This document shows, in pieces, positions 46,064 through 64,000 of a stretch of 64,000 bases of DNA. Each line of letters opens with the position of its first letter. The first letter of the stretch is position 1. Below the pieces are notes generated by a model. It was not told where the DNA came from, searched no databases, and saw only the letters and a list, made by a program, of their open reading frames with translations. The stretch is from Arthrobacter alpinus (GTDB lineage Bacteria > Actinomycetota > Actinomycetes > Actinomycetales > Micrococcaceae). The translations under genes were made by a program, and so were the position numbers. The DNA lies in NCBI RefSeq assembly GCF_900105965.1, contig NZ_FNTV01000002.1, positions 320,620 through 384,619 of the forward strand. Direction: 5' to 3'.

Positions 46064-46610
46064 TGCAAACCTCCCAGAATTTGTGAGTCTGAAATTCAGT
46101 GTTGGCATGTCCTGCGGCGGCAAGGCTCGGCATCCACGTTACGGCTGACCTGCACGTTGGTCCTCGTGCTGGTCCGGTCCCCATTAGCGATCCCCTGGCG
46201 CCTATCGAATCTCGGTGACAACACCCCCCGGATTATTGATAACTGGGGGACTTAATCATGCCGGGACCGACAGGCCAACAACCCCAATTCTTACTCTTTA
46301 AGGGGCTGCTAAAAAGGTAACGGGGGCGGGCCGAACGTTGAGCCCGGCGGCGACTTCCAACAACCAATTCCGTGAATACACAGACAAATCCGTACCCATG
46401 TGACACGCCTGGCGCAGGGGTGGAATAGACCCTGAAACTTGGACTGATTAATTTGATTCCATACGTCCGCGACGGACACAGCGTGCTCTACTTTCGAAGT
46501 CCACTTGGATCCGCTTTATTGGGAGCAGTCGAGCTGGAGTAGCGCCTCCGCACTTCGCCCAGGCATCCAATCTAATGGACGAGTATGCAAATAATTACGT
46601 CTTGACAGAT
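46064..46610. other. Left flank of IS110 gene and plasmid intergenic DNA
   Basis: 547 bases. The first part (to about 46260) should hold the non-coding end of the IS110 element, where characterised members encode the guide RNA; I cannot fold it reliably by eye. The rest shows no gene or repeat. Confidence 0.45.
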
Positions 46611-46943
46611 TTATTCCTTCAGAAGCCTGTCTCGGATAGCTTCGTCCAAGAATGCAACAACCGTCATTCCGCGTTCGTTCAGGTACCTGTCGAGCTCATC
46701 GCGGAGACTAATCTCAATCTTTGAGGAGAAAGGTTCCATTCGTCGTTTGGACCTCGGCCGCCCAGGGCCCGGTCTTGTCTCGTAAACGATGGGTGCTGGC
46801 TCAAGACTCTTTGATTGTGTGTGCAGGAAAGCTACCCCTCCCCCACCGGCCCCAGCGGCATCGGCGGACTGCTGGGTCAGTGCTTCTACCACGTCAGCCT
46901 GAGGTGCTTTGCGAATCGAAGACTTTCTTTCAACGGGGGTCAT
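46611..46943 (-). CDS. ParB-like ribbon-helix-helix partition protein
   Basis: A 110-aa protein whose C-terminal part (IEISLRDELDRYLNERGMTV, VAFLDEAIRDRLL) is a ribbon-helix-helix domain; the N-terminal half is Gly/Ala-rich and flexible. It overlaps parA by four bases. In type Ib partition systems the small ParB/ParG-like protein binds the centromere and stimulates ParA. The tandem repeats just upstream of parA are the likely target. Confidence 0.82.
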   Translation of the reverse strand: MTPVERKSSIRKAPQADVVEALTQQSADAAGAGGGGVAFLHTQSKSLEPAPIVYETRPGPGRPRSKRRMEPFSSKIEISLRDELDRYLNERGMTVVAFLDEAIRDRLLKE

Positions 46944-47719
46944 TTTTTCACTCCATCCAATCGGCGGGCATGTTCTACAAACTTTTCTGTGAGTGCGGCT
47001 GCGCCTCGACTGGACAACTTGGTAAGCGGAACTCTCGAGCTAACCGAATCTTGCATCGCCGTTCGGTGGGGCAAAAGCGGCATAGCCACATCGTCGCCGT
47101 ACTCACCTTGCAGTTCACCAATTTGGTACGCATGCTCACCCGTCAGGGGTGAGCTTGTTTTGTTGATGACTATCCCTGCGAACTCCAACGCTGGGTTGAG
47201 GTGCGGCAACGACTGAACCTTTTTGACCGTGTCCATGAACTCGGTAACCCCTTTGACTGCAAAGGCGGTCGGTTCAGTGACAATAAGGGCCCTATCGGCC
47301 CAGATCAGACCATTCAGTGTCAGACGACCAAGAGCGGGCGGCAAATCAATAAGGATGTGGTCATATTCATCGAGTTCCGGGGCGTTCCATGCCGCAGTTT
47401 TAAGTCGGAGCTCGGGTGTCATAAGGACTTCAGATTCAATCCGTGAAAGGGATTCTGATCCCGATACGGCATCAACCCCTGCCCAGGATGTTGAGACTAT
47501 GGCTTGGCCGAGAGTTCCCGCTTCACCGCCGTAAAGGACGTCGAATATGTCAAACTCCCCCTCTGCTTCCAGCGCCGTGGTTGCGTTGGATTGCGGATCA
47601 AGATCTACAACCAGGACTCGTCTCCCGATTAGCGCTAGACCCATTGCCAGTCCCAGGGTGACAGATGTCTTTCCGACGCCACCTTTTCGATTGCCTATTG
47701 CTGTCACTGTCGGTGTCAT
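46940..47719 (-). CDS. parA: ParA partition ATPase
   Basis: A 259-aa ATPase with the deviant Walker A box KGGVGKTSV near residue 12, Walker A' region VLVVDLDPQSNATTAL, and ILIDLPPALG. Length and lack of an N-terminal DNA-binding domain place it with small (type Ib) plasmid ParA proteins. AGGAG sits six bases before ATG 47719. It segregates the plasmid together with the overlapping RHH gene and the centromere-like repeats upstream. Confidence 0.94.
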   Translation of the reverse strand: MTPTVTAIGNRKGGVGKTSVTLGLAMGLALIGRRVLVVDLDPQSNATTALEAEGEFDIFDVLYGGEAGTLGQAIVSTSWAGVDAVSGSESLSRIESEVLMTPELRLKTAAWNAPELDEYDHILIDLPPALGRLTLNGLIWADRALIVTEPTAFAVKGVTEFMDTVKKVQSLPHLNPALEFAGIVINKTSSPLTGEHAYQIGELQGEYGDDVAMPLLPHRTAMQDSVSSRVPLTKLSSRGAAALTEKFVEHARRLDGVKK

Positions 47720-47747
47720 CTAGTTCTCCTTTTATAGCGTCAAGCCA

Positions 47748-48495
47748 TCATGACAGAATGTTAGACGTACGTCAATCAATCTGTCATGACATAATTATTT
47801 AAATCCAAACAATCCTGCTTTTTCTCGAGAACTACACCAAGGAACAACGACACATAAGTGTCGAGGCAAACTTTGCCCACGACGCGACCCTCACCTTGAC
47901 ACGGTCTCCGCCTGACCAGACGATCGCTAATATATGTCTATCAATCCACCAATCCATCATGACATAATTATTTAAATCCAAACAATCCTGCTTTTTCTCG
48001 AGAACTACACCAAGGAACAACGACACATAAGTGTCGAGGCAAACTTTGCCCACGACGCGACCCTCACCTTGACACGGTCTCCGCCTGACCAGACGATCGC
48101 TAATATATGTCTATCAATCCACCAATCCGTCATGACATAATTATTTAAATCCAAACAATCCTGCTTTTTCTTGAGAACTACACCAAGGAACAGCGAAACG
48201 TAGGTGTCGAGGCAAACTTTGCCCACGACGCGACCCTCACCTTGACACGGTCTCCGCCTGACCAGACGGTCGCTAATATATGTCTATCAATCTGTCATGA
48301 CATAATTATTTAATATTCAGATGCGCTTATCATTAGAGGCGGTTTGTAACCTGACCGGAAGTGGGCCTGAAGGGGCGAGTACCTTGCCGCTCCGATCACA
48401 TACACCTATTCCGCTGCAGTACCTACTCTCGGACAAACGAGTGTCCAACTGGCTGATCCGCTAAGTGGCCACAAATCAAACAATCTGTCATGACG
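47748..48495. repeat. Tandem 173-bp repeats, centromere (parS)-like
   Basis: Three units starting at the core TCATGAC at 47784, 47957 and 48130 (periods 173, 173 and about 165) are nearly identical; more core copies lie at 47748, 48295 and 48488. In several copies the core is the perfect palindrome TGTCATGACA, followed by ATAATTATTTAA. Placement immediately upstream of parA fits the partition site and possibly the autoregulatory operator. The conserved unit also includes long segments unrelated to the core, so a role in replication (iteron-like) is possible. Confidence 0.85.
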
Positions 48496-48719
48496 TATTT
48501 AATTTCAATCCGTGCTCTATCATTTTTCATTCGTGTTTATTCTCGAGTCATACTTCGTGCTGTATACGAGAACGGAAGATGGGGGGATAGGCATTGAAGT
48601 TTGTCAGTTCCACGCCAGTAAGTCAGTGGCCGTCATCCGCGTAAGAATCGATGATGTACAGGTCCGCTGTCATTTTTCGTCACGATCTGTGTTTGGGAGC
48701 GAGAGAGTCATCCTCATGA
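48496..48719. other. Intergenic stretch, nothing recognised
   Basis: About 220 bases between the repeat array and the Rep remnant; a 70-codon frame without Shine-Dalgarno sequence lies here and is not counted. Confidence 0.4.
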
Positions 48720-49462
48720 AGTAGCCGCGTAAGCGGCTTGGCGGTGCCGTTGTAGGGCTGATTTCTCGTCGTCGTAGGGGATCCAGGGTCGCCCTTGTTG
48801 CTTTCTTGATCGTAAATATCTTCTTCTTGGATCACTTGCTCAGGGAACCGTTCACGATGGGCGTGACACTGCCTGCGTTGTGCCCGGATGAGAGCACTTT
48901 GGAGTTCGTAGTCTTCCTGGACAACTAACCCCTCTGCGATTCTTGCCAGGTTGGCGATGTGAATGATCAGCCGAACTCCGTGCGGGCGTTCCACCATAGA
49001 CACTTCTGCCGGGATGGTGGGTTCTTTGGAGGCGGTGGGGCGGATCAACCCGGTGCCCCGGACAATGTCTGCCATTGTGGGGGAGCGGCGCCCCCGTTCC
49101 ACGGACTCCTAGATGAGGGCTGAGGATGCCCCAGGGGCTCTGAATGCTGTCCGGATCGTGGATTCCTACCTTTGCGTCAAGCAGTGGCTTTTGCATCATC
49201 CTCCAATTGCTCCGGCCGGACTAACAAGTAACTATCGGATCGCTTTCCGCGGGCTTCATCGAGTTTAGACAGCATCCACCAGAGTGTTTGACCAGGAAGG
49301 GAGCCGGCTCCCGATAGTGCTGTGGTGTGTGTCCCTTTCCCCGGCAAAACCAAGGATCGCTCGAAAAAGCAAACCTCAGGATTATACCTTCACAGCCAGT
49401 ATGTGCGAGACGGTGGTCAAGGAACGAGTACAGAACGTTTTCAAGATCATTGCCCTCCGCCC
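48720..49462 (-). pseudogene. Decayed second copy of the Rep/primase gene (C-terminal part)
   Basis: The minus strand retains ERGRRSPTMADIVRGTG, VQEDYELQSALIRAQRRQ and EEDIYDQES, matching ERGRHSPTTADIVRATG, VQEDYEYQCSLIRAQRQ and EEDIYDQEI in the intact Rep at 51023-52933. Upstream, matching DNA continues in other frames up to about 49462, with substitutions and indels throughout. Unlike the right-arm copy at 61-63 kb, divergence is mostly substitutions, so this is a true old duplication. Confidence 0.8.
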
Positions 49463-49597
49463 GGACAGAGACGCTGGAACGAAGACCCCCGTTCCAGCGT
49501 AGGGGCAGTGCGGTTAGACTCGCGGAGTCCTGACTGGCGGTTACCCGCCTAACGTGCTTACAGTGACCGCATTACTCGCGTATAGGAGTTGGATCAC

Positions 49598-49852
49598 ATG
49601 CCTTTGAAGCCTCTGAATACCATGGCCGGTATTACGGCCGCTATTGCACTTGCTGCCGGAGGCCTCACTGTTGCTGCGCCCGCGCGGGCCGCGGGCTACT
49701 CATACCTGTACCCGGCGGGCTTCAGCACGCAGTCCGCATGCAACACGAAACGCCTCACGATGAACTCTTCCTGGACCCGCGCGAGTCAGTGCTTCATCAT
49801 GACCGACACCGGGAAAGCTGTGTGGAAATTCTCCGTCACTGTGCATGGATAG
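49598..49852 (+). CDS. Small secreted protein with two cysteines
   Basis: An 84-aa protein. AGGAG lies ten bases before ATG 49598. A signal peptide (cleavage near ARA) leaves a mature chain of about 52 residues with two Cys (SACNTKRL, SQCFIMTD) that could form a disulfide, and an aromatic C-terminus (VWKFSVTVHG). Small secreted proteins of this layout are frequent in actinobacteria; some are bacteriocin- or signal-like, but no family is recognised. No immunity or export gene is adjacent. Confidence 0.65.
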   Translation: MPLKPLNTMAGITAAIALAAGGLTVAAPARAAGYSYLYPAGFSTQSACNTKRLTMNSSWTRASQCFIMTDTGKAVWKFSVTVHG

Positions 49853-50095
49853 CCTCGCCGTAGTTCCGAGGGTGGACCATCTTGCCTTTTAGCAACCGTG
49901 ATCCATTGTCGGTCCTCCCACCGACGAACCCTTAAGGTGTCTGGTCCCGGCTTGGGACCAGCGGTTGGCGCTAAACTTTCTTCAGTTCCTACTCAACCCC
50001 AGAATAGTAGCCCCCTGAAGAGGCATGGCCCTGGTAGGACTGTTCATCACTTACATGGTGTTCAAAATCTTCCCTCTGGGGCTCAGTAGGGGTCG

Positions 50096-50953
50096 CTAGA
50101 GGCGGACTCCTAATGATTCCAGACGTGCCTGCCGTTCAGGGAGTAAGGTTCCTTTTTTGAACGCGATGCGTTGGTTCTTGATCCAGGTACCTAGCTTCAC
50201 GTCACCCTCGATAAATCGTGTAGGGACATTCGCTGTCTTGTGCTTCTCCTTGTACGTAGTGACTAGAGCAAAGTGGTGTTCCCAGCTGGCATCGTTGAGG
50301 CTCCACACCACGCCGAGGTTTTCCAAGGCCACAATGCGCTCGGAGCTGATGGTACCCACGCGGTACGCCCTGCGCTGGGTCTGCAACCAGGTCCCAAGGT
50401 GAAGGCCTTGGTAGGTGCATCCATCTGGAGCATTCACGTGGCCATACTCTTCTCGGTAGGATTCTAATATCGAGAAGGCGTCCTTCCATGATCGTTTCTG
50501 GTTCTCCCATGAGATTCCAGCCTTCTCTAACGACGCCACCCGTTCGGGGCTCAGCTGTCCACGCCTGTACTTCATCCGTTGTTTGCCTACCCAGACACCC
50601 AACGGGACACCATCGGTCACAAAAGACTGGGGCACCTCTACATTGCCGTGCTGATCCCGATAGAGCAGCAACAGATCGTATCGCTTCGCCCACAGGCTTT
50701 GATGATGAGGCATCCACTCCATGCCAAGGTCAGCCAGCCGCGCGGCACGATCCGCGGGCAGCTTTCCTTTTGCTTGAGATTCTCGTTGGGTTTTAACCCA
50801 CCGACCAAGACTCATGCCACGAAAAATGAGGGTGTTCTTCACCTCCACAGTCCCATGAACATCTCGATAGTCCTCTAAGAGCAAGAACATTTCATCCCAC
50901 ACCAGATCACGGACGGTAGCGGTCTTCAGTGGGAGATTAATCAGAGTAGTCAT
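50096..50953 (-). CDS. Protein of four helicase-associated (HA) repeats
   Basis: A 285-aa protein made of four repeats of about 65 residues. Each has an aromatic-rich helix, an EYxxxHG-like step (DYRDVHGTVEV, LYRDQHGNVEV, SYREEYGHVNA, TYKEKHKTANV), a LG-W-xxQR step (LGRWVKTQR, LGVWVGKQR, LGTWLQTQRR, LGTWIKNQR) and an L-xLG ending. This is the PF03457 helicase-associated domain, usually found after a DEAD-type helicase; here there is no helicase core. It probably binds nucleic acid. It follows the Rep gene on the same strand. A truncated copy lies in the right arm from 63308. Confidence 0.85.
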   Translation of the reverse strand: MTTLINLPLKTATVRDLVWDEMFLLLEDYRDVHGTVEVKNTLIFRGMSLGRWVKTQRESQAKGKLPADRAARLADLGMEWMPHHQSLWAKRYDLLLLYRDQHGNVEVPQSFVTDGVPLGVWVGKQRMKYRRGQLSPERVASLEKAGISWENQKRSWKDAFSILESYREEYGHVNAPDGCTYQGLHLGTWLQTQRRAYRVGTISSERIVALENLGVVWSLNDASWEHHFALVTTYKEKHKTANVPTRFIEGDVKLGTWIKNQRIAFKKGTLLPERQARLESLGVRL

Positions 50954-51022
50954 ACTTCTTAGGAGGCAACTGCGGACTAATTATCACGCAACTCCTCAGA
51001 ACTCGTTTCCGACGAGCTGCGG

Positions 51023-52933
51023 TTAGGCGGCGAGTAGGTGCCGGTCCCAGGCGCTGAGTTCGCCGTAGTCGTCGGGGACCCAAGAATCCCATTCGGAAAT
51101 TTCCTGGTCGTAGATGTCTTCCTCCCGGATCACCGGCTCAAGGAAGCGTTCGAGATAGGCGTGCCAAGCCTGTCGTTGGGCCCGTATCAGGGAGCACTGG
51201 TATTCATAGTCTTCTTGAACACCCAACCACTCCGCAATATGCCGCAAGTTGGTGGCGTGGAGGATCTGCCAAGCCCCGTGGTGTCGCTCGATCATGGACA
51301 CCTCCGCCAGCGTCATCAGTTCCTTATGGACGGTGGGCCGGCTAAGACCGGTTGCCCGCACAATATCCGCTGTGGTGGGGGAGTGGCGGCCACGTTCGAT
51401 GGCTTCATAAACAAGTGCGGCTGGGGCACCCAGTGCCCTGAACACGGGGCGAATCCCGTAGATCTTGCCCTTACGCCAGGCATGAGCTTTCGCAACGTCC
51501 TTCCACTGCTCTGGCAACCCCAACAGGTAGCTATCAGCGTGGCGGCCCTGGGCGTCCTGAAGCTTGGAGAGCATTCCACCGGAGTGCCTAACCAGGCGGG
51601 GAAGAAGGCGGGCAATAGTGCCATGGTGCTTACCCATCTCCCTAGCAAAAGACCGGCACCCCACATCAACCAATAGAGTTCCTTTAGCCCTAGCGAAACC
51701 AATCACAGCGCGCAGAAGGAACCGCAGGGTGATACCTTCACGCCCAGTTTCAGCTAGACGTTGGTCAAGGATCGCGTAGAGCACATTTTCAAGATCATTG
51801 ATTTCAGCCATCACCGACGCGGGGGAACGAACCTCAGCAGTGCCCCCGCCGTGGGTTAAGGGATGGCCTGTGTCGCATTTATTGCTATATTCTTTCCCAG
51901 CATTAGGGACTCCCTGTTTCTGGGCTACCCACGCTTGGGCTTTGTCCCATTCGAGGGGCAACAGCCGGCCTAGGTGTGCCATGTCTTGGTAGAGGGCAGC
52001 GAGACCAGCGAAGTCAGTTGTCAGGCGTTCCTGAACTTGGGGAAGAGTGATCGAGAAGTTAGAGAGGTGGGACAGGACAGCCATACGAGCTTCCGAGGCG
52101 CTCTTGTAGCGGGCAGTGTCGTAGATCCCGGTGCGGGCAACCTTACGCAACACCGATGTGCCGCGAGCCGACAGAAGGCCGGTAGTTCTGGGTGTGGTGG
52201 CCACGGTCAGACCCGCTGTGGTGCGGGCATCTTTGCGTGTCCGCACCTGGCGGATAGATGCAGCCAGTGCGCGACGCAGGGCAGCCACGGCGGTGGCAGG
52301 GTTGCGTAGGCGCATGATGTCGTACGCCTCGTGCAGGGGAGTGTCGAGGACCTGGTGGCCCGTCATGGACTTATGCCAAGAACCCGGAGGGCGGATACAA
52401 CCATCGGTGATGTTCTGGTGTGGTCCAGGGTCAAGACTCGGGAAACGAGACGCGAGAGCTTCCACAAGCTCGCGGGCATCCTCGGCCGCCAAACGTTCTA
52501 CCAAGGGAATGTAGATGTGACGGCCACCGCTGGGAGAGTGGTCTGCCACGAACCGAAGCCCACACGAAGTCACTAGTGCGCTGATGGCGGCCGCGTCAGC
52601 ATCCACCACGCCTTGCAGAGCTTTGGAAGTATCAAGATCCAAACACAATGTCTGCACGGATCCATCCGAGCCGTGAACCATGACGGCGGCCGCGCGGTTT
52701 GGCAGCGATCGTGTAATGCGAGGCGGGACCAACCGGGGGCGAGGGTACTTTCCTGCCCTCGTGGCAAAACGCATGACGGGAGCGCCGGCTATCAAGGACG
52801 CCAACGAGGCCCATGCCTGAGCATGGACAGATGCCTCGACTGACACTCCGTGTGTGTCAACTGAGCTGGTTGTACCCAAAAAAGCATGTGCGTGTATGAT
52901 GGAGTTATTCCTTAGCAAGAGCGGGCATGACAA
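51023..52933 (-). CDS. Plasmid replication initiator/primase (AEP-like Rep)
   Basis: A protein of up to 636 aa. The N-terminal third carries the archaeo-eukaryotic primase-like motifs LCLDLDTS (hDxD), SPSGGRHIYIPL, and a conserved His in RPPGSWHKSM. Further on come a PriCT-like helical section (ERLTTDFAGLAALYQDMAHL) and a C-terminal winged-helix part (TTADIVRATGLSRPTVHKEL). This layout matches Rep proteins of actinobacterial plasmids that prime replication. The frame opens at TTG 52933, but the real start may be further in (GTG 52846). The ATG at 52928 in another frame begins a seven-codon peptide that could be a leader. Confidence 0.82.
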   Translation of the reverse strand: MSCPLLLRNNSIIHAHAFLGTTSSVDTHGVSVEASVHAQAWASLASLIAGAPVMRFATRAGKYPRPRLVPPRITRSLPNRAAAVMVHGSDGSVQTLCLDLDTSKALQGVVDADAAAISALVTSCGLRFVADHSPSGGRHIYIPLVERLAAEDARELVEALASRFPSLDPGPHQNITDGCIRPPGSWHKSMTGHQVLDTPLHEAYDIMRLRNPATAVAALRRALAASIRQVRTRKDARTTAGLTVATTPRTTGLLSARGTSVLRKVARTGIYDTARYKSASEARMAVLSHLSNFSITLPQVQERLTTDFAGLAALYQDMAHLGRLLPLEWDKAQAWVAQKQGVPNAGKEYSNKCDTGHPLTHGGGTAEVRSPASVMAEINDLENVLYAILDQRLAETGREGITLRFLLRAVIGFARAKGTLLVDVGCRSFAREMGKHHGTIARLLPRLVRHSGGMLSKLQDAQGRHADSYLLGLPEQWKDVAKAHAWRKGKIYGIRPVFRALGAPAALVYEAIERGRHSPTTADIVRATGLSRPTVHKELMTLAEVSMIERHHGAWQILHATNLRHIAEWLGVQEDYEYQCSLIRAQRQAWHAYLERFLEPVIREEDIYDQEISEWDSWVPDDYGELSAWDRHLLAA

Positions 52934-52949
52934 AGCCGCTGTTGTCGAA

Positions 52950-52993
52950 CTAGTTTGAAACGGATTCCGGGAAGTTTCACGGTTTCAAACTAG
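52950..52993. repeat. 12-bp dyad upstream of rep
   Basis: CTAGTTTGAAAC pairs exactly with GTTTCAAACTAG around a 20-base centre. It lies between the terminator of the RHH gene and the rep start, where an origin, a copy-control RNA or a repressor site would be. The mirror copy is at about 61278-61321. Confidence 0.75.
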
Positions 52994-53007
52994 AGAGTTT
53001 TTCAGTC

Positions 53008-53030
53008 AAGGCCCGCCTAGTGCGGGCCTT
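53008..53030 (-). terminator. Terminator after the RHH gene
   Basis: AAGGCCCGC, five-base loop, GCGGGCCTT, followed on the minus strand by GACTGAAAAA; it lies just past the stop of the gene at 53036. A short T-rich tract also follows on the plus strand. Confidence 0.7.
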
Positions 53031-53035
53031 CTGCT

Positions 53036-53407
53036 TTAAGAAGCCTGCGCGATAGGCAAAGCCCCCTGCGTGCGTAGTTGTTCGAGGTCAACGGCATCGA
53101 GGTGGGCTTCGATGATGGGCGCCATGTAGTCGATACCATTTGTATCGAGAATTTCGAGCAGCTCAAAGAGCTTCGCAGTCCGCTCCATGTCGAGCTTGAC
53201 TGTGAACGAATGCCGTTGTCCCTTGGAGGGTCGGCCAATACGAGATTTCGTCACTGGTGCCATAGGGTCAATTATGTGCGTTTCATCAAATGAAAATGGG
53301 CATTTGGCAACCGTTGGGCGTGTCATCCGGTTGGACTCGCTGACAGGCGTGACGAGATTGGTCGCTACGAAGTGAGTCCTAGTCTTGGCACGGGACGCAG
53401 TTGACAT
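53036..53407 (-). CDS. Small RHH-type DNA-binding protein, probable copy control
   Basis: A 123-aa protein with AGAGGG six bases before ATG 53407 (the frame is open to 53464). The C-terminal half (GRPSKGQRHSFTVKLDMERT, AKLFELLEILDTNGIDYM) has a GRPSKG basic arm and a strand-helix-helix pattern. It sits directly upstream of rep, the usual position of a copy-control repressor on actinobacterial plasmids, with a terminator and the 12-bp dyad between them. Regulatory role is inferred from position. Confidence 0.7.
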   Translation of the reverse strand: MSTASRAKTRTHFVATNLVTPVSESNRMTRPTVAKCPFSFDETHIIDPMAPVTKSRIGRPSKGQRHSFTVKLDMERTAKLFELLEILDTNGIDYMAPIIEAHLDAVDLEQLRTQGALPIAQAS

Positions 53408-53476
53408 GGTTTCCCTCTCTGCTCGTCGCTTGCCTCTAACACTAAGAATACATCTAAAGTGCAATTCTACGCTTTA

Positions 53477-54199
53477 TCAGTACTTGGGTGCTCCATGCCC
53501 TGGCAACCAGGCAGCAGCTTCTAGGTCTTGTAGGTGCTTGAATGCAAGACCGGCGGCAGCATTGTCACCCTGAAAAATTTCGTGAAGCATTTGGGGTCCA
53601 CTCTCCGAAGAGATTGCATGCCCGGTTACCCAAGCGTCACCAGTCGCAATCGCCATTCCGTCTTGGAGATTGAAGGCAGCATGGCCCGGGGTATGCCCTG
53701 GCGTCATGATCACCCTAGGACTCCCTGGCAGATCCAGCCTGTCGTGATTATGGAAGACCCCAGTCGGTTCCAGGGACACCTTTGTCAGGCCTCCAGCTTG
53801 TATCGCATCGTGCATCCAGACGGACACAAGTGGATCACCCTGGAGAGCAAGTACGTCATCAAGGGTTACCTGGGAAGCTACTACTCCCCGAAGAACATCT
53901 GCCTCTTGGTCGCTACAAAGAACAGGGATTCCGTACGTGCTCGACAGCAACTGGAGGGGGCCTACATGATCCACGTGAGCATGGGTGACCAAAATTGCAG
54001 TGCAATCGCTCCAAGACAGGTCCAGATGCGAAATGGATTTCTCGACATTGGCCAGATCTGCGGGGTATCCACAATCGATCAATGTGAAATCTCTGCCCTC
54101 CGTGGCGACAACCCAATTTGAACCCGGACCTTCAAAGTGATGGATTTGGTCAGCAACGGTTGTGGCTCGTTCAGCAGCTACCCAGTTTTCAAGACTCAA
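53477..54199 (-). CDS. MBL-fold metallo-hydrolase
   Basis: A 240-aa cytosolic hydrolase. The metal-binding motif THAHVDHVG (HxHxDH) is complete; further ligands are in TPGHTPGHAAF, GDAWVTGHA and the closing LPGHG. The overall order is that of glyoxalase II/lactonase-type enzymes. The start is TTG within the stop codon of the preceding gene (TTGA overlap), so expression is coupled to the small winged-helix regulator. Substrate unknown: lactones, thioesters or nucleotides are all possible for this fold. Confidence 0.88.
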   Translation of the reverse strand: MSLENWVAAERATTVADQIHHFEGPGSNWVVATEGRDFTLIDCGYPADLANVEKSISHLDLSWSDCTAILVTHAHVDHVGPLQLLSSTYGIPVLCSDQEADVLRGVVASQVTLDDVLALQGDPLVSVWMHDAIQAGGLTKVSLEPTGVFHNHDRLDLPGSPRVIMTPGHTPGHAAFNLQDGMAIATGDAWVTGHAISSESGPQMLHEIFQGDNAAAGLAFKHLQDLEAAAWLPGHGAPKY

Positions 54200-54474
54200 G
54201 GCAGCAGCTTCCCTGTTGATTCTTTAGCCACTGCTCGAACGAGGGCGCCACGATTTAGGCGAGCGGTTTCGGTATCCATGATGACTACTCCGTGAGATTG
54301 CAGCACTTCGAGGGCCTCCACAATCGACCCTTCCTTGAGCTGAGTTGCCTGTTCTATGTCCCTTGCAGATAGGGGCTTAGCTGATCTTCCGATCGTCCTC
54401 AGAACGATTGTGCAAGCCTCACTGAAGAGGGGCATTGCAGGATCACTTGGGAGGCAGTATTGGGTTTCACTCAT
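54196..54474 (-). CDS. Winged-helix regulator
   Basis: A 92-aa protein with GGAGATATCC before ATG 54474. The core AKPLSARDIEQATQLKEGSI, then VEALEVLQSHGVVIMD, is a winged-helix DNA-binding domain. It precedes and overlaps the metallo-hydrolase gene. It probably regulates that small operon and perhaps the divergent PAS-protein gene. The frame is open to 54600, but the upstream part has no Shine-Dalgarno sequence. Confidence 0.75.
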   Translation of the reverse strand: MSETQYCLPSDPAMPLFSEACTIVLRTIGRSAKPLSARDIEQATQLKEGSIVEALEVLQSHGVVIMDTETARLNRGALVRAVAKESTGKLLP

Positions 54475-54978
54475 GGATATCTCCGGGAGGTCTGTCATCG
54501 GAAACAGCCAACCGGGCATCCGCCAGGAGAGCATCAGTTCTGCAACTGCAGAAGCGAGATTAATTCCAGCGGTTGCATGAAAATAAGTCAAATTGGTCAC
54601 TTTCAGGCTGTCAAACGTGGATGCCAGTGTTTCTCCGGTAGGTTTGTATCCCTTCTTGAAGCCCGCGCTCCCTAATTCCTCCCGCGAATCCGGGCAATCG
54701 TTCCGGTTCGTTTAGGCTTACGGAGCCTTGGAGATCCTGACCTGAATGCAAGTGATGAGGGATGGAACCTTAGAACATTCATCCGATTGGACAGTTTTTG
54801 CGTTCAAGTGCGTAGATATTTCATCCGATTGGACAGTATTACCTGCGCTCTCTCCAAAGTGCTCGAATTCGCGTACCAAAATCGGTGAATCGCACTCTTT
54901 ATAGGTAGGGCATGAGGATTCTTCCGACCCATGACAGTTGGGCCCTAACGGCCGTAAAAGGATATTGAGAGGTGCCGG
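54475..54978. promoter_or_regulatory. Divergent region with 18-bp direct repeats 42 bp apart
   Basis: TTCATCCGATTGGACAGT occurs at 54778-54795 and again, identical, at 54820-54837. The 42-base period is about four helical turns, so both copies face one side of the DNA. The site contains the small dyad TCC-GATT-GGA. It lies between the divergent winged-helix and PAS genes and is a strong operator candidate. Mirror copies lie near 59435-59494. Confidence 0.7.
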
Positions 54979-56052
54979 ATGGAAAATGTGGAGTTGAGCG
55001 CAGCCGCTTGGATTCTGGTTGATGTCCTTGAGACGGGGGCGCTGGGCCTACTTTCTGTTGGTAGTTCCCATTTTCCGGGTTCATCAGTTAGGAAGAACCT
55101 GGACCAGAGAGCCAGATTGCTGCTCATGGAGAACCTGCGCACTGCAATCCAGCAAGGATCCTTGGTTGACAAGATTGAGGTCAATGAAGGGGCGACATGG
55201 CGAGTGCTCGTGGAGCCTATTAGGTCTCCAACCACGGGCCAAGTGGTGGCAGCGCATTGCATTTATGCTGCCCCGGATACAGCGTTGCCTCCTAAGCCAA
55301 TCATCGGTTCCTTGGAATGGAAGATCGACCCAAAGACGGGTGCAATTGAATCCGAGTGGAATGCTGGGATGTACGAACTTTACGAACTCGTCCCTGACGC
55401 CGGACCTAGCCCAACTGGCGATATGACGCAGTGGGTCAATCAGTTCATTGCTCCCGAAGATCAAGCCATCATGAAGATGACGATTGACGCCTCTATCTCC
55501 GCTCATGACGGGGAACGGTACATCGTTTCTTACCGGATCAAAACCGGTGGAGAAGACGGTGGCGTGAAGATCCTGCAAGTATCGGGGCGAGTCACCACAT
55601 CCCCACTCAACGGATCAATATGGTTGCGAGCCATCACTCGGGAGATTGGCTCTATGGCATCAAGCATCATGCCGGAAGGTCTGAAAGTCGACACCTCAGG
55701 CCTTCTTCAAGCCCTGTTGAACCTCAGTGATGACATGATTTTCTTCGCTGTTGATTCCACAACCTGGCAAATCTTCATGCCCTCGCCCAACTTGGAAAGT
55801 CATGGGCTGGCCGTCGGCGAGGGCGGGTTCCTGGCAAATATGATTGCCCCTGCGGATCTTCAAGATTGTCTTGTGTACCTGACCAAACAGCTGACAGCAA
55901 CCGCACCACTAGCATCCAGAAGGAAATTCAACTTCCAAACAGTTTCCGGGGTCAACGTGCCTATGACTATGGCTTCAGAGCCCTTTGCCACCGAGACGGA
56001 CAAGGGTCGATACATAGCTTGCCGGCTTGTTCAGGAAGTCAATTCCCGCTGA
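54979..56052 (+). CDS. PAS-type sensor-like protein
   Basis: A 357-aa soluble protein. It resembles actinobacterial PAS/GAF-like proteins: an N-terminal alpha/beta domain (residues about 1-105), a central PAS-like part (GSLEWKIDPKTGAIESEWN, YELYELVPD, FIAPEDQAIMKMTIDAS) and a second PAS-like domain (LLNLSDDMIFFAVDSTTWQI). No kinase, cyclase or HTH output is attached, so it may act by binding a partner. Neighbours (winged helix, metallo-hydrolase, HTH) suggest a signalling group. Its end overlaps the convergent HTH gene by 14 bases. Confidence 0.7.
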   Translation: MENVELSAAAWILVDVLETGALGLLSVGSSHFPGSSVRKNLDQRARLLLMENLRTAIQQGSLVDKIEVNEGATWRVLVEPIRSPTTGQVVAAHCIYAAPDTALPPKPIIGSLEWKIDPKTGAIESEWNAGMYELYELVPDAGPSPTGDMTQWVNQFIAPEDQAIMKMTIDASISAHDGERYIVSYRIKTGGEDGGVKILQVSGRVTTSPLNGSIWLRAITREIGSMASSIMPEGLKVDTSGLLQALLNLSDDMIFFAVDSTTWQIFMPSPNLESHGLAVGEGGFLANMIAPADLQDCLVYLTKQLTATAPLASRRKFNFQTVSGVNVPMTMASEPFATETDKGRYIACRLVQEVNSR

Positions 56053-56371
56053 CGTAGTCCAGCCAAGCCTGTTGTAGCTCGTCACAACGGGCGGTATCAA
56101 GAGTGAACACTATGGCCCGTCTGCCCTGTTCTGAACGTAGCCGAGGCTTAATGACCCCCGTGCTTTCGAGCACGTCGAGGGCCCCGTTGAGGGTGGTGCT
56201 CAAAATGTTCAGGGAAGCCCGGATCTCAGCCTTCGTCGCGCCTTCAGGGCGCGATCGCAGAAAACGGACAACCCCAGCTCGCACACTGTTTCCCAGTGCC
56301 TGCACCGCAGCTTCAACGAGATCAGACCAGGCGGGATCTTCAGTGCGGATAATTCGGGGCATGTAGTTCAT
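56039..56371 (-). CDS. Winged-helix (ArsR/MarR-like) regulator
   Basis: A 110-aa regulator. GAAAGG is seven bases before ATG 56371 (the ATG at 56374 is the alternative). LGNSVRAGVVRFLRSRPEGA, then TKAEIRASLNILSTTLNGAL and DVLESTGVIKPRL, is a classical winged helix with a beta-hairpin wing (RRAIVFTLD). It converges on the PAS gene. The right-arm copy (57898-58230) has the same protein sequence. Confidence 0.85.
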   Translation of the reverse strand: MNYMPRIIRTEDPAWSDLVEAAVQALGNSVRAGVVRFLRSRPEGATKAEIRASLNILSTTLNGALDVLESTGVIKPRLRSEQGRRAIVFTLDTARCDELQQAWLDYVSGN

Positions 56372-56740
56372 CATACGACCTTTCGCGTATAAGCGGTCGA
56401 CACAACACATTGCAGATACCTCATGTGCGATCGAATTTCAATGTCTTAAATGTTGTTTACTTCTTAAACATAATCTACACTTAAAACATCACCAAGACAG
56501 TTTGAACCCGAGTTTGGACCCGTAGCGGTCTTTAAGCGTGAAATAACCATGACTGGAAGGCACGACTCCAACGCCTTTGTGTCAGCCAAGTCGTCCGCGG
56601 AGAGCATAAAAGTCGACAAGTTCCCTCGCCGACAAAGAAGGCTACAGCCGGGACAGGATCGAAATTGATCACCCGTCTGACAGCGTGCGCTAGATACCTC
56701 CACGGTCGATACCTCAACACCCTTGATAGGACATACCTTC
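56372..56740. other. Divergent intergenic region
   Basis: About 370 bases between the winged-helix gene (minus) and the truncated HTH gene (plus). It is A+T-rich near 56440-56490. Promoters of both must lie here; no repeat recognised. Confidence 0.45.
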
Positions 56741-57040
56741 ATGACGACTCCGGCAGTGGGCTCTACTTCTTTGTTCTCAGACGTAACACCAACACGACCG
56801 CTAACAGCTAAGGAACAGGCTGCTGTTCAGCTCACTCGACGAATCAGAATCAGTCTAGAAAGCGCCTACACACTGATTGTCGAAGCGTTTTGAGTCCCGT
56901 GCGTGGGAAGCCCTTGGTTACCAAAGCTGGGATATGTACTGCAAGGGCGAATTCAGTGGCATGAACCTCCAACCACCTCTGGAGCAAACGCGAACAGGTC
57001 ATATTGTCCGATGCGTGAGGCAGGGATGTCCTCACGAGCC
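56741..57040 (+). pseudogene. HTH plasmid protein, cut by the palindrome
   Basis: The start of a small actinobacterial plasmid regulator-like protein (LTAKEQAAVQLTRRIRISLE, then SAYTLIVEAF). An extra T at about 56889 puts a stop after VEAF; in the next frame the sequence goes on with ESRAWEALGYQSWDMYCKGE and later MREAGMSSRAI, the beginning of a helix-turn-helix. There the sequence turns into the palindrome centre, so the C-terminal half is absent. The other arm has the same gene without the extra T (57252-57527). Confidence 0.65.
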
Positions 57041-57230
57041 ATTAGGTTGCTGCGACTGAGCTATTCACTAGACTCGACCGTGGCCCAGGACTGCTTCGAA
57101 ATGCGCGAATCTACCAGGTGTTGCATCATGCCAACACCTGGTAGAGAGAATTCCGCTGGCGAAGAGCATCTACCTGCCACGGTCGAGTAGCTTCCTGAAG
57201 TATCGAGTTACGCAGAATCCATTATAGGTT
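57041..57230. repeat. Noisy palindromic centre of the inverted duplication
   Basis: The 190 bases between the arms are themselves an imperfect palindrome: CTACCAGGTGTTG (57111-57123) pairs with CAACACCTGGTAG (57132-57144) around eight bases, and CTCGACCGTGG (57073-57083) with CCACGGTCGAG (57177-57187). Between these blocks the two halves agree only with many indels and mismatches, more than in the arms. Confidence 0.85.
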
Positions 57231-57251
57231 GCTCGTGAGGACATCCCTGCC

Positions 57252-57527
57252 TCACGCATGCGACAATATGACCTGTTCGCGTTGCTCCAGAGGTGGTTGG
57301 AGGTTCATGCCACTGAATTCGCCCTTGCAGTACATATCCCAGCTTTGGTAACCAAGGGCTTCCCACGCACGGGACTCAAACGCTTCGACAATCAGTGTGT
57401 AGGCGCTTTCTAGACTGATTCTGATTCGTCGAGTGAGCTGAACAGCAGCCTGTTCCTTAGCTGTTAGCGGTCGTGTTGGTGTTACGTCTGAGAACAAAGA
57501 AGTAGAGCCCACTGCCGGAGTCGTCAT
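57252..57527 (-). CDS. HTH plasmid protein, mirror copy, truncated
   Basis: Right-arm copy of 56741-57040. From ATG 57527 the frame runs through LTAKEQAAVQLTRRIRISLE, VEAFESRAWEALGYQSWDMY, KGEFSGMNLQPPLEQREQVI and stops after LSHA. One base is probably missing there: the left arm continues with MREAGMSSRAI. The protein type is a small actinobacterial plasmid DNA-binding protein; its helix-turn-helix lies in the part lost at the palindrome. Confidence 0.6.
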   Translation of the reverse strand: MTTPAVGSTSLFSDVTPTRPLTAKEQAAVQLTRRIRISLESAYTLIVEAFESRAWEALGYQSWDMYCKGEFSGMNLQPPLEQREQVILSHA

Positions 57528-57897
57528 GAAGGTATGTCCTATCAAGGGTGTTGAGGTATCGACCGTGGAGGTATCTAGCGCACGCTGTCAGACGGGTGAT
57601 CAATTTCGATCCTGTCCCGGCTGTAGCCTTCTTTGTCGGCGAGGGAACTTGTCGACTTTTATGCTCTCCGCGGGACGACTTGGCTGACACAAAGGCGTTG
57701 GAGTCGTGCCTTCCAGTCATGGTTATTTCACGCTTAAAGACCGCTACGGGTCCAAACTCGGGTTCAAACTGTCTTGGTGATGTTTTAAGTGTAGATTATG
57801 TTTAAGAAGTAAACAACATTTAAGACATTGAAATTCGATCGCACATGAGGTATCTGCAATGTGTTGTGTCGACCGCTTATACGCGAAAGGTCGTATG

Positions 57898-58230
57898 ATG
57901 AACTACATGCCCCGAATTATCCGCACTGAAGATCCCGCCTGGTCTGATCTCGTTGAAGCTGCGGTGCAGGCACTGGGAAACAGTGTGCGAGCTGGGGTTG
58001 TCCGTTTTCTGCGATCGCGCCCTGAAGGCGCGACGAAGGCTGAGATCCGGGCTTCCCTGAACATTTTGAGCACCACCCTCAACGGGGCCCTCGACGTGCT
58101 CGAAAGCACGGGGGTCATTAAGCCTCGGCTACGTTCAGAACAGGGCAGACGGGCCATAGTGTTCACTCTTGATACCGCCCGTTGTGACGAGCTACAACAG
58201 GCTTGGCTGGACTACGTCAGCGGGAATTGA
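57898..58230 (+). CDS. Winged-helix regulator, mirror copy
   Basis: Identical in protein sequence to 56039-56371, in reverse orientation, with the same start signals. It is intact, but as part of the inverted arm it may not be an independent gene. Confidence 0.75.
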   Translation: MNYMPRIIRTEDPAWSDLVEAAVQALGNSVRAGVVRFLRSRPEGATKAEIRASLNILSTTLNGALDVLESTGVIKPRLRSEQGRRAIVFTLDTARCDELQQAWLDYVSGN

Positions 58231-59291
58231 CTTCCTGAACAAGCCGGCAAGCTATGTATCGACCCTTGTCCGTCTCGGTGGCAAAGGGCTCTGAAGCCAT
58301 AGTCATAGGCACGTTGACCCCGGAAACTGTTTGGAAGTTGAATTTCCTTCTGGATGCTAGTGGTGCGGTTGCTGTCAGCTGTTTGGTCAGGTACACAAGA
58401 CAATCTTGAAGATCCGCAGGGGCAATCATATTTGCCAGGAACCCGCCCTCGCCGACGGCCAGCCCATGACTTTCCAAGTTGGGCGAGGGCATGAAGATTT
58501 GCCAGGTTGTGGAATCAACAGCGAAGAAAATCATGTCATCACTGAGGTTCAACAGGGCTTGAAGAAGGCCTGAGGTGTCGACTTTCAGACCTTCCGGCAT
58601 GATGCTTGATGCCATAGAGCCAATCTCCCGAGTGATGGCTCGCAACCATATTGATCCGTTGAGTGGGGATGTGGTGACTCGCCCCGATACTTGCAGGATC
58701 TTCACGCCACCGTCTTCTCCACCGGTTTTTGATCCGGTAAGAAACGATGTACCGTTCCCCGTCATGAGCGGAGATAGAGGCGTCAATCGTCATCTTCATG
58801 ATGGCTTGATCTTCGGGAGCAATGAACTGATTGACCCACTGCGTCATATCGCCAGTTGGGCTAGGTCCGGCGTCAGGGACGAGTTCGTAAAGTTCGTACA
58901 TCCCAGCATTCCACTCGGATTCAATTGCACCCGTCTTTGGGTCGATCTTCCATTCCAAGGAACCGATGATTGGCTTAGGAGGCAACGCTGTATCCGGGGC
59001 AGCATAAATGCAATGCGCTGCCACCACTTGGCCCGTGGTTGGAGACCTAATAGGCTCCACGAGCACTCGCCATGTCGCCCCTTCATTGACCTCAATCTTG
59101 TCAACCAAGGATCCTTGCTGGATTGCAGTGCGCAGGTTCTCCATGAGCAGCAATCTGGCTCTCTGGTCCAGGTTCTTCCTAACTGATGAACCCGGAAAAT
59201 GGGAACTACCAACAGAAAGTAGGCCCAGCGCCCCCGTCTCAAGGACATCAACCAGAATCCAAGCGGCTGCGCTCAACTCCACATTTTCCAT
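58217..59291 (-). pseudogene. PAS-type protein, mirror copy, frameshifted
   Basis: Mirror of 54979-56052. From ATG 59291 the sequence matches to YIVSYRIK (near 58736), where a run of five T (plus strand) replaces the four of the other arm; the rest (GGEDGGVKILQVSGRV onward) continues in the next frame to 58217. Otherwise almost identical. Confidence 0.8.
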
Positions 59292-59797
59292 CCGGCACCT
59301 CTCAATATCCTTTTACGGCCGTTAGGGCCCAACTGTCATGGGTCGGAAGAATCCTCATGCCCTACCTATAAAGAGTGCGATTCACCGATTTTGGTACGCG
59401 AATTCGAGCACTTTTGGAGAGAGCGCAGGTAATACTGTCCAATCGGATGAAATATCTACGCACTTGAACGCAAAAACTGTCCAATCGGATGAATGTTCTA
59501 AGGTTCCATCCCTCATCACTTGCATTCAGGTCAGGATCTCCAAGGCTCCGTAAGCCTAAACGAACCGGAACGATTGCCCGGATTCGCGGGAGGAATTAGG
59601 GAGCGCGGGCTTCAAGAAGGGATACAAACCTACCGGAGAAACACTGGCATCCACGTTTGACAGCCTGAAAGTGACCAATTTGACTTATTTTTCATGCAAC
59701 CGCTGGAATTAATCTCGCTTCTGCAGTTGCAGAACTGATGCTCTCCTGGCGGATGCCCGGTTGGCTGTTTCCGATGACAGACCTCCCGGAGATATCC
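59292..59797. promoter_or_regulatory. Mirror of the divergent operator region
   Basis: Reverse complement of 54475-54978, including both direct repeats (here ACTGTCCAATCGGATGAA). It has small indels relative to the left arm. Confidence 0.7.
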
Positions 59798-60076
59798 ATG
59801 AGTGAAACCCAATACTGCCTCCCAAGTGATCCTGCAATGCCCCTCTTCAGTGAGGCTTGCACAATCGTTCTGAGGACGATCGGAAGATCAGCTAAGCCCC
59901 TATCTGCAAGGGACATAGAACAGGCAACTCAGCTCAAGGAAGGGTCGATTGTGGAGGCCCTCGAAGTGCTGCAATCTCACGGAGTAGTCATCATGGATAC
60001 CGAAACCGCTCGCCTAAATCGTGGCGCCCTCGTTCGAGCAGTGGCTAAAGAATCAACAGGGAAGCTGCTGCCTTGA
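59798..60076 (+). CDS. Winged-helix regulator, mirror copy
   Basis: Same 92-aa protein as 54196-54474 with the same start signal (GGAGATATCC). Intact in this arm and overlapping the metallo-hydrolase copy by four bases. Confidence 0.72.
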   Translation: MSETQYCLPSDPAMPLFSEACTIVLRTIGRSAKPLSARDIEQATQLKEGSIVEALEVLQSHGVVIMDTETARLNRGALVRAVAKESTGKLLP

Positions 60077-60795
60077 GTCTTGAAAACTGGGTAGCTGCTG
60101 AACGAGCCACAACCGTTGCTGACCAAATCCATCACTTTGAAGGTCCGGGTTCAAATTGGGTTGTCGCCACGGAGGGCAGAGATTTCACATTGATCGATTG
60201 TGGATACCCCGCAGATCTGGCCAATGTCGAGAAATCCATTTCGCATCTGGACCTGTCTTGGAGCGATTGCACTGCAATTTTGGTCACCCATGCTCACGTG
60301 GATCATGTAGGCCCCCTCCAGTTGCTGTCGAGCACGTACGGAATCCCTGTTCTTTGTAGCGACCAAGAGGCAGATGTTCTTCGGGGAGTAGTAGCTTCCC
60401 AGGTAACCCTTGATGACGTACTTGCTCTCCAGGGTGATCCACTTGTGTCCGTCTGGATGCACGATGCGATACAAGCTGGAGGCCTGACAAAGGTGTCCCT
60501 GGAACCGACTGGGGTCTTCCATAATCACGACAGGCTGGATCTGCCAGGGAGTCCTAGGGTGATCATGACGCCAGGGCATACCCCGGGCCATGCTGCCTTC
60601 AATCTCCAAGACGGAATGGCGATTGCGACTGGTGACGCTTGGGTAACCGGGCATGCAATCTCTTCGGAGAGTGGACCCCAAATGCTTCACGAAATTTTTC
60701 AGGGTGACAATGCTGCCGCCGGTCTTGCATTCAAGCACCTACAAGACCTAGAAGCTGCTGCCTGGTTGCCAGGGCATGGAGCACCCAAGTACTGA
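60073..60795 (+). CDS. MBL-fold metallo-hydrolase, mirror copy
   Basis: Same 240-aa protein as 53477-54199, including THAHVDHVG and TPGHTPGHAAF, intact, TTG start in the overlap with the regulator. It is the longest undamaged frame of the right arm. Confidence 0.78.
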   Translation: MSLENWVAAERATTVADQIHHFEGPGSNWVVATEGRDFTLIDCGYPADLANVEKSISHLDLSWSDCTAILVTHAHVDHVGPLQLLSSTYGIPVLCSDQEADVLRGVVASQVTLDDVLALQGDPLVSVWMHDAIQAGGLTKVSLEPTGVFHNHDRLDLPGSPRVIMTPGHTPGHAAFNLQDGMAIATGDAWVTGHAISSESGPQMLHEIFQGDNAAAGLAFKHLQDLEAAAWLPGHGAPKY

Positions 60796-60864
60796 TAAAG
60801 CGTAGAATTGCACTTTAGATGTATTCTTAGTGTTAGAGGCAAGCGACGAGCAGAGAGGGAAACC

Positions 60865-61235
60865 ATGTCAACTGCGTCCCGTGCCAAGACTAGGACTCAC
60901 TTCGTAGCGACCAATCTCGTCACGCCTGTCAGCGAGTCCAACCGGATGACACGCCAACGGTTGCCAAATGCCCATTTTCATTTGATGAAACGCACATAAT
61001 TGACCCTATGGCACCAGTGACGAAATCTCGTATTGGCCGACCCTCCAAGGGACAACGGCATTCGTTCACAGTCAAGCTCGACATGGAGCGGACTGCGAAG
61101 CTCTTTGAGCTGCTCGAAATTCTCGATACAAATGGTATCGACTACATGGCGCCCATCATCGAAGCCCACCTCGATGCCGTTGACCTCGAACAACTACGCA
61201 CGCAGGGGGCTTTGCCTATCGCGCAGGCTTCTTAA
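60865..61235 (+). pseudogene. RHH-type protein, mirror copy, frameshifted
   Basis: Mirror of 53036-53407. One C is missing in ACGCC(C)AACGG near 60952, so the frame from ATG 60865 ends after HLMKRT at 60999. The C-terminal domain (APVTKSRIGRPSKGQRHSF onward) is open from 61008 to 61235. Confidence 0.78.
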
Positions 61236-61337
61236 AGCAGAAGGCCCGCACTAGGCGGGCCTTGACTGAAAAACTCTCTAGTTTGAAACCGTGAAACTTC
61301 CCGGAATCCGTTTCAAACTAGTTCGACAACAGCGGCT

Positions 61338-63238
61338 TTGTCATGCCCGCTCTTGCTAAGGAATAACTCCATCATACACGCACATGCTTTTTTGGGTACA
61401 ACCAGCTCAGTTGACACACACGGAGTGTCAGTCGAGGCATCTGTCCATGCTCAGGCATGGGCCTCGTTGGCGTCCTTGATAGCCGGCGCTCCCGTCATGC
61501 GTTTTGCCACGAGGGCAGGAAAGTACCCTCGCCCCCGGTTGGTCCCGCCTCGCATTACACGATCGCTGCCAAACCGCGCGGCCGCCGTCATGGTTCACGG
61601 CTCGGATGGATCCGTGCAGACATTGTGTTTGGATCTTGATACTTCCAAAGCTCTGCAAGGCGTGGTGGATGCTGACGCGGCCGCCATCAGCGCACTAGTG
61701 ACTTCGTGTGGGCTTCGGTTCGTGGCAGACCACTCTCCCAGCGGTGGCCGTCACATCTACATTCCCTTGGTAGAACGTTTGGCGGCCGAGGATGCCCGCG
61801 AGCTTGTGGAAGCTCTCGCGTCTCGTTTCCCGAGTCTTGACCCTGGACCACACCAGAACATCACCGATGGTTGTATCCGCCCTCCGGGTTCTTGGCATAA
61901 GTCCATGACGGGCCACCAGGTCCTCGACACTCCCCTGCACGAGGCGTACGACATCATGCGCCTACGCAACCCTGCCACCGCCGTGGCTGCCCTGCGTCGC
62001 GCACTGGCTGCATCTATCCGCCAGGTGCGGACACGCAAAGATGCCCGCACCACAGCGGGTCTGACCGTGGCCACCACACCCAGAACTACCGGCCTTCTGT
62101 CGGCTCGCGGCACATCGGTGTTGCGTAAGGTTGCCCGCACCGGGATCTACGACACTGCCCGCTACAAGAGCGCCTCGGAAGCTCGTATGGCTGTCCTGTC
62201 CACCTCTCTAACTTCTCGATCACTCTTCCCCAAGTTCAGGAACGCCTGACAACTGACTTCGCTGGTCTCGCTGCCCTCTACCAAGACATGGCACACCTAG
62301 GCCGGCTGTTGCCCCTCGAATGGACAAAGCCCAAGCGTGGGTAGCCAGAAACAGGGAGTCCCTAATGCTGGGAAAGAATATAGCAATAAATGCGACACAG
62401 GCCATCCCTTAACCCACGGCGGGGGCACTGCTGAGGTTCGTTCCCCGCGTCGGTGATGGCTGAAATCAATGATCTTGAAAATGTGCTCTACGCGATCCTT
62501 GACCAACGTCTAGCTGAAACTGGGCGTGAAGGTATCACCCTGCGGTTCCTTCTGCGCGCTGTGATTGGTTTCGCTAGGGCTAAAGGAACTCTATTGGTTG
62601 ATGTGGGGTGCCGGTCTTTTGCTAGGGAGATGGGTAAGCACCATGGCACTATTGCCCGCTTCTTCCCCGCCTGGTTAGGCACTCCGGTGGAATGCTCTCC
62701 AAGCTTCAGGACGCCAGGGCCGCCACGCTGATAGCTACCTGTTGGGGTTGCCAGAGCAGTGGAAGGACGTTGCGAAAGCTCATGCCTGGCGTAAGGGCAA
62801 GATCTACGGATTCGCCCCGTGTTCAGGGCACTGGGTGCCCCAGCCGCACTTGTTTATGAAGCCATCGAACGTGGCCGCCACTCCCCCACCACAGCGGATA
62901 TTGTGCGGGCAACGGTCTTAGCCGGCCCACCGTCCATAAGGAACTGATGACGCTGGCGGAGGTGTCCATGATCGAGCGACACCACGGGGCTTGGCAGATC
63001 CTCCACGCCACCAACTTGCGGCATATTGCGGAGTGGTTGGGTGTTCAAGAAGACTATGAATACCAGTGCTCCCTGATACGGGCCAACGACAGGCTTGGCA
63101 CGCTATCTCGAACGCTTCCTTGAGCCGGTGATCCGGGAGGAAGACATCTACGACCAGGAAATTTCCGAATGGATTCTTGGGTCCCCGACGACTACGGCGA
63201 ACTCAGCGCCTGGGACCGGCACCTACTCGCCGCCTAAC
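61338..63238 (+). pseudogene. Rep/primase, mirror copy with multiple frameshifts
   Basis: Mirror of 51023-52933. The frame from 61338 matches through the primase motifs and EARMAVLS, then shifts where one C is missing (near 62202) and ends at 62249. Pieces of the rest reappear in other frames (62453-62731 with NDLENVLYAILDQRLAETGR; 63095-63238 with EPVIREEDIYDQEISEW). Missing bases lie in GGG, CCCCC and similar runs. If the arm is real, this copy cannot make a full Rep. Confidence 0.8.
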
Positions 63239-63307
63239 CGCAGCTCGTCGGAAACGAGTTCTGAGGAGTTGCGTGATAATTAGTCCGCAGTTGCCTCCTA
63301 AGAAGTA

Positions 63308-64000
63308 TGACTACTCTGATTAATCTCCACTGAAGACCGCTACCGTCCGTGATCTGGTGTGGGATGAAATGTTCTTGCTCTTAGAGGACTATCGAGATGT
63401 TCATGGGACTGTGGAGGTGAAGAACACCCTCATTTTTCGTGGCATGAGTCTTGGTCGGTGGGTTAAAACCCAACGAGAATCTCAAGCAAAAGGAAAGCTG
63501 CCGCGGATCGTGCCGCGCGGCTGGCTGACCTTGGCATGGAGTGGATGCCTCATCATCAAAGCCTGTGGGCGAAGCGATACGATCTGTTGCTGCTCTATCG
63601 GGATCAGCACGGCAATGTAGAGGTTGCCCCAGTCTTTTGTGACCGATGGTGTCCCGTTGGGTGTCTGGGTAGGCAAACAACGGATGAAGTACAGGCGTGG
63701 ACAGCTGAGCCCCGAACGGGTGGCGTCGTTAGAGAAGGCTGGAATCTCATGGGAGACCAGAAACGATCATGGAAGGACGCCTTCTCGATATTAGAATCCT
63801 ACCGAGAAGAGTATGGCCACGTGAATGCTCCAGATGGATGCACCTACCAAGGCCTTCACCTTGGGACCTGGTTGCAGACCCAGCGCAGGGCGTACCGCGT
63901 GGGTACCATCAGCTCCGAGCGCATTGTGGCCTTGGAAAACCTCGGCGTGGTGTGGAGCCTCAACGATGCCAGCTGGGAACACCACTTTGCTCTAGTCACT
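63308..64000 (+). pseudogene. Helicase-associated repeat protein, mirror copy, partial
   Basis: Mirror of the first three quarters of 50096-50953, cut by the window end. A missing C in the eighth codon region and further indels (near 63512, 63625 and 63757) move it among three frames. Recognisable pieces: DYRDVHGTVEVKN, LGRWVKTQRES, and later LGVWVGKQ-like and LGTWLQTQRRA-like stretches. Confidence 0.75.

Follow-up and report, generated by a model that had tools for sequence, protein, structure and literature searches.

An inverted repeat at the end of an Arthrobacter plasmid contig is very probably a fold-back artefact on an untrimmed circular overlap

In one study, foldback reads amounted to about 0.55-0.6% of nanopore genomic reads but were virtually absent from its PacBio HiFi data; the authors name library preparation as the most likely source of such reads and tangled assembly graphs as one possible outcome (PMC12870357, in excerpt). 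Palindromic (inverted chimeric) reads have been described after whole-genome amplification, where displaced 3′ ends anneal to nearby strands (PMC13265396, in excerpt). The terminal inverted repeats of the linear Streptomyces chromosome (PMC4487206, in excerpt) were also considered, and are not the case seen here. In this study, we analysed a window of 64,000 nucleotides (the whole stretch of DNA under study), which corresponds to C2:320620-384619 of contig C2 (NZ_FNTV01000002.1), one of the two contigs in an Arthrobacter alpinus assembly; the other, C1, is the chromosome contig. Judged from the sequence, the tail of C2 is in all likelihood a fold-back artefact at the contig end of a circular plasmid of ~368,048 bp whose overlap was left untrimmed, because the repeat touches the contig end, an unfolded copy continues past the turn, the right arm carries indels, C1 ends in the same manner, and native hairpins are present at the turns.

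When compared with itself (blastn), the window matched its own reverse complement from 50258 to 64000 at 99.1%, in the form of two arms of ~6.87 kb each that join at ~57129 (Table 1). With the centre excluded, the arms were 99.65% identical over 6,787 columns (2 mismatches and 22 gap positions), and a match of such length is far beyond chance. The 6.8-kb inverted duplication with a turn inside the window, as reported in the initial annotation, is thereby confirmed: the start given there (50261) was correct within 3 bases, and the centre named there (57041-57230) coincides with the garbled stretch found here. No tRNA, and no Rfam family at gathering score, was found in the window.

Table 1. Features of the window around the turn; positions are those of the window unless marked C2.
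Feature	Position	Strand	Remarks
ParA gene	46940-47719	-	
End copy of the circular overlap	47430-57110	+	Same DNA as C2:1 to ~9665, untrimmed
Helicase-associated-domain (HA) gene, PF03457, 285 aa	50096-50953	-	Right-arm copy broken, cut by contig end
Left arm	50258-57129	+	Genuine plasmid sequence, second copy via overlap
rep-like gene, 636 aa	51023-52933	-	HTH_IclR just above cut-off; primase-polymerase matches below cut-offs
MBL-fold hydrolase gene, PF00753, 240 aa	53477-54199	-	Frame open in right arm
Weak MarR-like regulator gene, 134 aa	54196-54600	-	Below Pfam cut-off
357-aa ORF	54979-56052	+	Without Pfam family; frame broken in right arm
95-aa ORF	56903-57190	+	Product of the garbled turn, replacing an intact 301-aa HTH ORF
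Garbled turn-around	57040-57240		57145-57244 is forward continuation interleaved with fold-back path
Native palindrome at the turn	57111-57144		Garbled in window; unfolded copy C2:9665-9696, stem 15, loop 2
Right arm	57130-64000	-	Reverse complement of the left arm, folded back and of lower quality, up to contig end; very probably artefact

The position of the repeat within the contig is informative. Contig C2 is 384,619 bp long, and the right arm reaches its last base, since window base 64000 is C2:384619. The start of the same contig (C2:1-9722) matched window positions 47430-57175 at 99.7% (blastn) and then departed past the turn into other DNA; from base 9722 onwards the contig start, fetched up to base 20000, showed no additional match in the window. 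An unfolded copy of the locus therefore stands at the start of C2 and runs on beyond the turn. A 2-kb left-arm probe (50261-52261) detected full-length sites in both arms and at C2:2827-4827, three in the whole assembly, as well as two extra matches of ~150 bases at 73% that represent a separate diverged repeat. As the start is repeated at the end and continues past the turn, C2 is read as a ~368,048-bp circle whose overlapping ends were not trimmed and whose tail is folded back; the redundant part of the contig amounts to 16,571 bases.

A genuine inverted duplication of 6.8 kb in the plasmid would fit the near identity of the arms, and short inverted repeats are known to seed such duplications in bacteria. 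Nonetheless, the same assembly holds a copy without the duplication, and no unique DNA follows the right arm, so that the arms are not both flanked. The differences between the copies also argue against it. Between ~49.92 and 56.59 kb there were zero differences between the end copy and the start copy, while the right arm differed from the start copy (compared to C2 base 9600, garbled centre excluded) by 20 indels and 0 substitutions in 6.77 kb. Fifteen of these were one-base deletions (14 of them of G or C, and 15/15 in runs of at least 2), and the remaining 5 were insertions (4 in runs); the differences resemble sequencing errors rather than mutations. We then used a plasmid of A. alpinus A3 (NZ_CP013746.1; 194,226 bp, recorded as circular) as an arbiter. 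Across the rep region, where 17 columns differed and 2 at the alignment end were set aside, this relative favoured the left arm and the start copy in 15/15 informative columns and the right arm in 0/15, and both the excess of indels over substitutions and this rejection of the right-arm version speak against a duplication carried by the organism. Together with the end of the chromosome contig described below, which a duplication on the plasmid leaves unexplained, this makes a real duplication exceedingly improbable.

Errors were not limited to one copy, because the relative was split in the first 1.4 kb of C2, favouring the start copy in 2 and the end copy in 1 of 3 interior columns (7 columns differed, 4 of these at the alignment end). 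In the 200 bases beside the turn, where 9 columns differed and 4 were interior, the relative agreed with the start copy in 4/4, with the right arm in 3/4, and with the left arm in 0/4 interior columns, and the left arm is thus itself poor beside the turn.

The chromosome contig carries the same end structure. The first 14,951 bases of C1 recur at ~C1:4216390-4231343, which is an untrimmed overlap of 14.95 kb, and the remainder of the contig to its last base (to C1:4238022) is the reverse complement of C1:8215-14951, a fold-back of 6.7 kb. Over 6.69 kb outside the centre, the right arm of C1 contained 2 substitutions and 46 indels, of which 41 were deletions (33 of these in runs). In total, the redundant part of C1 amounts to ~21.6 kb. 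The same structure at the ends of both contigs of one assembly suggests a cause in the making of the sequence, and the real inverted duplication offered as one reading in the initial annotation is contradicted by this chromosomal counterpart. In a survey of nine congeners, which covered 20 kb per contig end and one small contig in whole and included part of the contigs of G006 and G017, none of 14 contigs had inverted ends of at least 300 bases within these stretches. Direct start-end matches of at least 1.6 kb were found in 6 of the 13 contigs with separate ends, and three of these six (G006 C2, G021 C1, and G021 C2) were plain end-to-start overlaps; the untrimmed overlaps in G021 C1 and C2 measured ~18.4 and ~15.8 kb, respectively, without a fold-back. 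In G012 C1, the contig end matched the start region at three staggered places, ~7.0 and 8.3 kb apart, which may be either tandemly repeated DNA or an assembly overlap present more than once.

Having located the turns, we examined the DNA on which they fall. The palindrome at the C2 turn is 32 bp long in the unfolded copy and lies inside a plasmid HTH gene, and the C1 turn falls on a native hairpin at C1:14932-14951 (stem 8, loop 4), whose stem was read by eye, as the hairpin scan required a stem of at least 9 and listed none there. A control set of 104.3 kb from the same genome contained 24 hairpins with a stem of at least 8 and 5 with a stem of at least 15 (loops up to 6); the chance of a hairpin within 3 bases of a given point, computed after the hairpins had been seen, is ~0.2% and ~0.03% for the two stem classes, respectively. 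In C1, the fold-back path followed directly after the hairpin (98.2 of 100, against 23.4 for the forward path), as expected from a self-annealed and extended 3′ end. In C2, a blend of forward and fold-back paths scored 97.6 over the 100 bases right of the palindrome; controls with a shuffled forward path had a mean of 84.7 and a maximum of 91.7 (100 runs), and those with a shuffled fold-back path a maximum of 91.0. Such blended sequence is what a consensus of folded and normal reads would give. Left of the palindrome (57036-57110), the blend scored 73.8 and was not above the shuffles (maximum 74.4). There was no sign of a leftover SMRTbell adapter at the turn, where the local score was 8.0; scores in 50 control stretches averaged 9.54 and reached at most 13.5.

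As both turns lie on small native hairpins, self-primed snap-back of library DNA is suggested. The contig was assembled through one full round and then ~9.7 kb past its own start, with the overlap left untrimmed, and at this loose end the layout very probably ended in a palindromic (fold-back) long read that added ~6.87 kb of reverse complement. The fold-back molecule was most likely made outside the cell, at library preparation: a single-stranded 3′ end could snap back on the natural hairpin (the 32-bp palindrome with its stem of 15), and a polymerase could then extend the snapped-back end by copying its own strand. We infer long-read data, snap-back chemistry, and one or few reads behind the tail.

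The same hairpins would suit snap-back in the cell as well as outside it. The fold could then be real in a minority of plasmid (and chromosome) molecules, in which the native hairpins (the 32-bp one in the plasmid HTH gene and the smaller one in the chromosome) were opened into hairpin-capped or folded-back ends, for instance through extrusion or copying back of the palindrome in the course of replication or break repair, and were caught by the assembly. The A. alpinus plasmid carries a shorter palindrome at the corresponding position, with a stem of 12 as read by eye, and this fits as well. On the other hand, the folds sit at the loose ends of both contigs, exactly where assembly would reveal them, the unfolded copy keeps the arrangement whole, including an open ORF of 301 aa, and reads of the fold-back kind have been described as a technical artefact (PMC12870357, in excerpt), so an origin in the cell appears very unlikely, if less so than a real duplication. 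A special function for the palindrome is not needed, as we see it; a 29-base part of it is identical in the A. alpinus plasmid and lies within codons for nearly the same peptide.

The related plasmid also bears on whether C2 could be linear. If the replicon were linear and ended at ~57129 in a covalently closed hairpin that the sequencer read through, a palindrome would lie at the centre of an inverted repeat and no flank would follow the right arm, as observed. However, both the start copy and the circular relative plasmid continue through the turn, the start and end of C2 overlap as in a circle, and the chromosome contig ends alike. The plasmid of A. alpinus A3 runs collinearly with C2 across the turn (C2:9395-15798 at 96.7%) and shares the genes for ParA, the HA domain, the rep-like HTH protein, a later HTH protein, DUF2637, and a sigma factor in the same order. 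It differs from C2 in having no inverted repeat and in carrying different genes between the rep-like gene and the HTH gene, a replaced stretch that is flanked by DNA matches on both sides. The protelomerase model PF16684 had 0 matches in the genome; in 14 control genomes, which contained no named proven positive, this single model matched only in Synechococcus elongatus. The closed hairpin end that the initial annotation had listed as a second option is thus contradicted by the unfolded copy, by the circular relative, and by the lack of a PF16684 match, and we consider it as remote as a real duplication. In contrast, the fold-back assembly product, which was the first of the three options that the initial annotation had put forward without a preference, is strongly supported by the unfolded copy, the C1 twin, the indels, the relative (15/15 columns), and the congeners (0/14).

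Relatives of the locus were few in the collections searched. Two records matched in a plasmid collection, from A. alpinus and A. dokdonellae (the latter over 8% of the query), and in 58 genomes, our own included, the sole match outside our own genome was 25 bases in G054. Relatives of the 301-aa protein were sought in named genome contigs with six peptide patterns, and none was confirmed.

The choice of explanation decides how many Rep, MBL-fold, and regulator genes are counted, as had rightly been pointed out before. Four right-arm frames are broken (HA, rep-like, 142-aa, and 357-aa), the first codons of the MarR-like frame are missing there, and two frames (MBL-fold and 123-aa) are open. At this locus the organism probably has one copy each of the arm's rep-like, MBL-fold, and regulator genes and lacks the extra ones; no additional copies were found elsewhere in the genome for the two probes searched (50261-52261 and C2:9400-10000). 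The MBL-fold protein reached 54.5 bits with its top beta-lactamase model, against a cut-off of 240. In the unfolded copy, the 301-aa HTH ORF (C2:9290-10195) crosses the turn without a stop, and the genes read past the turn are an HTH gene (weak), a DUF2637 gene, and a sigma-70 region 2 gene.

Several features were observed on the other side of the arm. At window ~48790-49510 (C2:1356-2080), two frames were 37-48% identical to portions of the rep-like protein of 636 aa; an older rep gene next to parA may have left this stretch as a remnant. A 173-bp unit is present in three tandem copies at window 47777-48292, just upstream of the ParA gene, and sequence related to these repeats also lies beside parA in the A. 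alpinus plasmid; by position only, they are a candidate centromere (parS) region. An IS110-family transposase gene (44864-46123, minus strand) is flanked by parA and a lipoprotein-like gene.

Anyone working with this assembly would overcount the rep-like, MBL-fold, and regulator genes, would see right-arm genes as broken though they are likely intact in the cell, and might take the plasmid for a linear one with hairpin ends. An untrimmed circular overlap can conceal a fold-back tail, which comes to light without reads when the two ends of a contig are compared; the case may be of value both as a warning and as an example of such a read-free test.

Compared with known systems, the structure resembles the foldback reads in that opposite-strand segments of one locus meet within 200 bp, but here it occurs in contig ends rather than in reads, and its turns lie on native hairpins, and the word 'hairpin' is absent from the text of that paper (PMC12870357). 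With the reads obtained after whole-genome amplification it shares the inverted repeats and the impaired long-read assembly (PMC13265396), whereas there is no sign of amplification here, and one fold per contig end is seen instead of complex multiple inversions. As in untrimmed overlaps of circular contigs, start and end consist of the same DNA on both contigs, a situation also found in plain form in three congener contigs; unlike those, both C1 and C2 carry a fold-back tail after the overlap.
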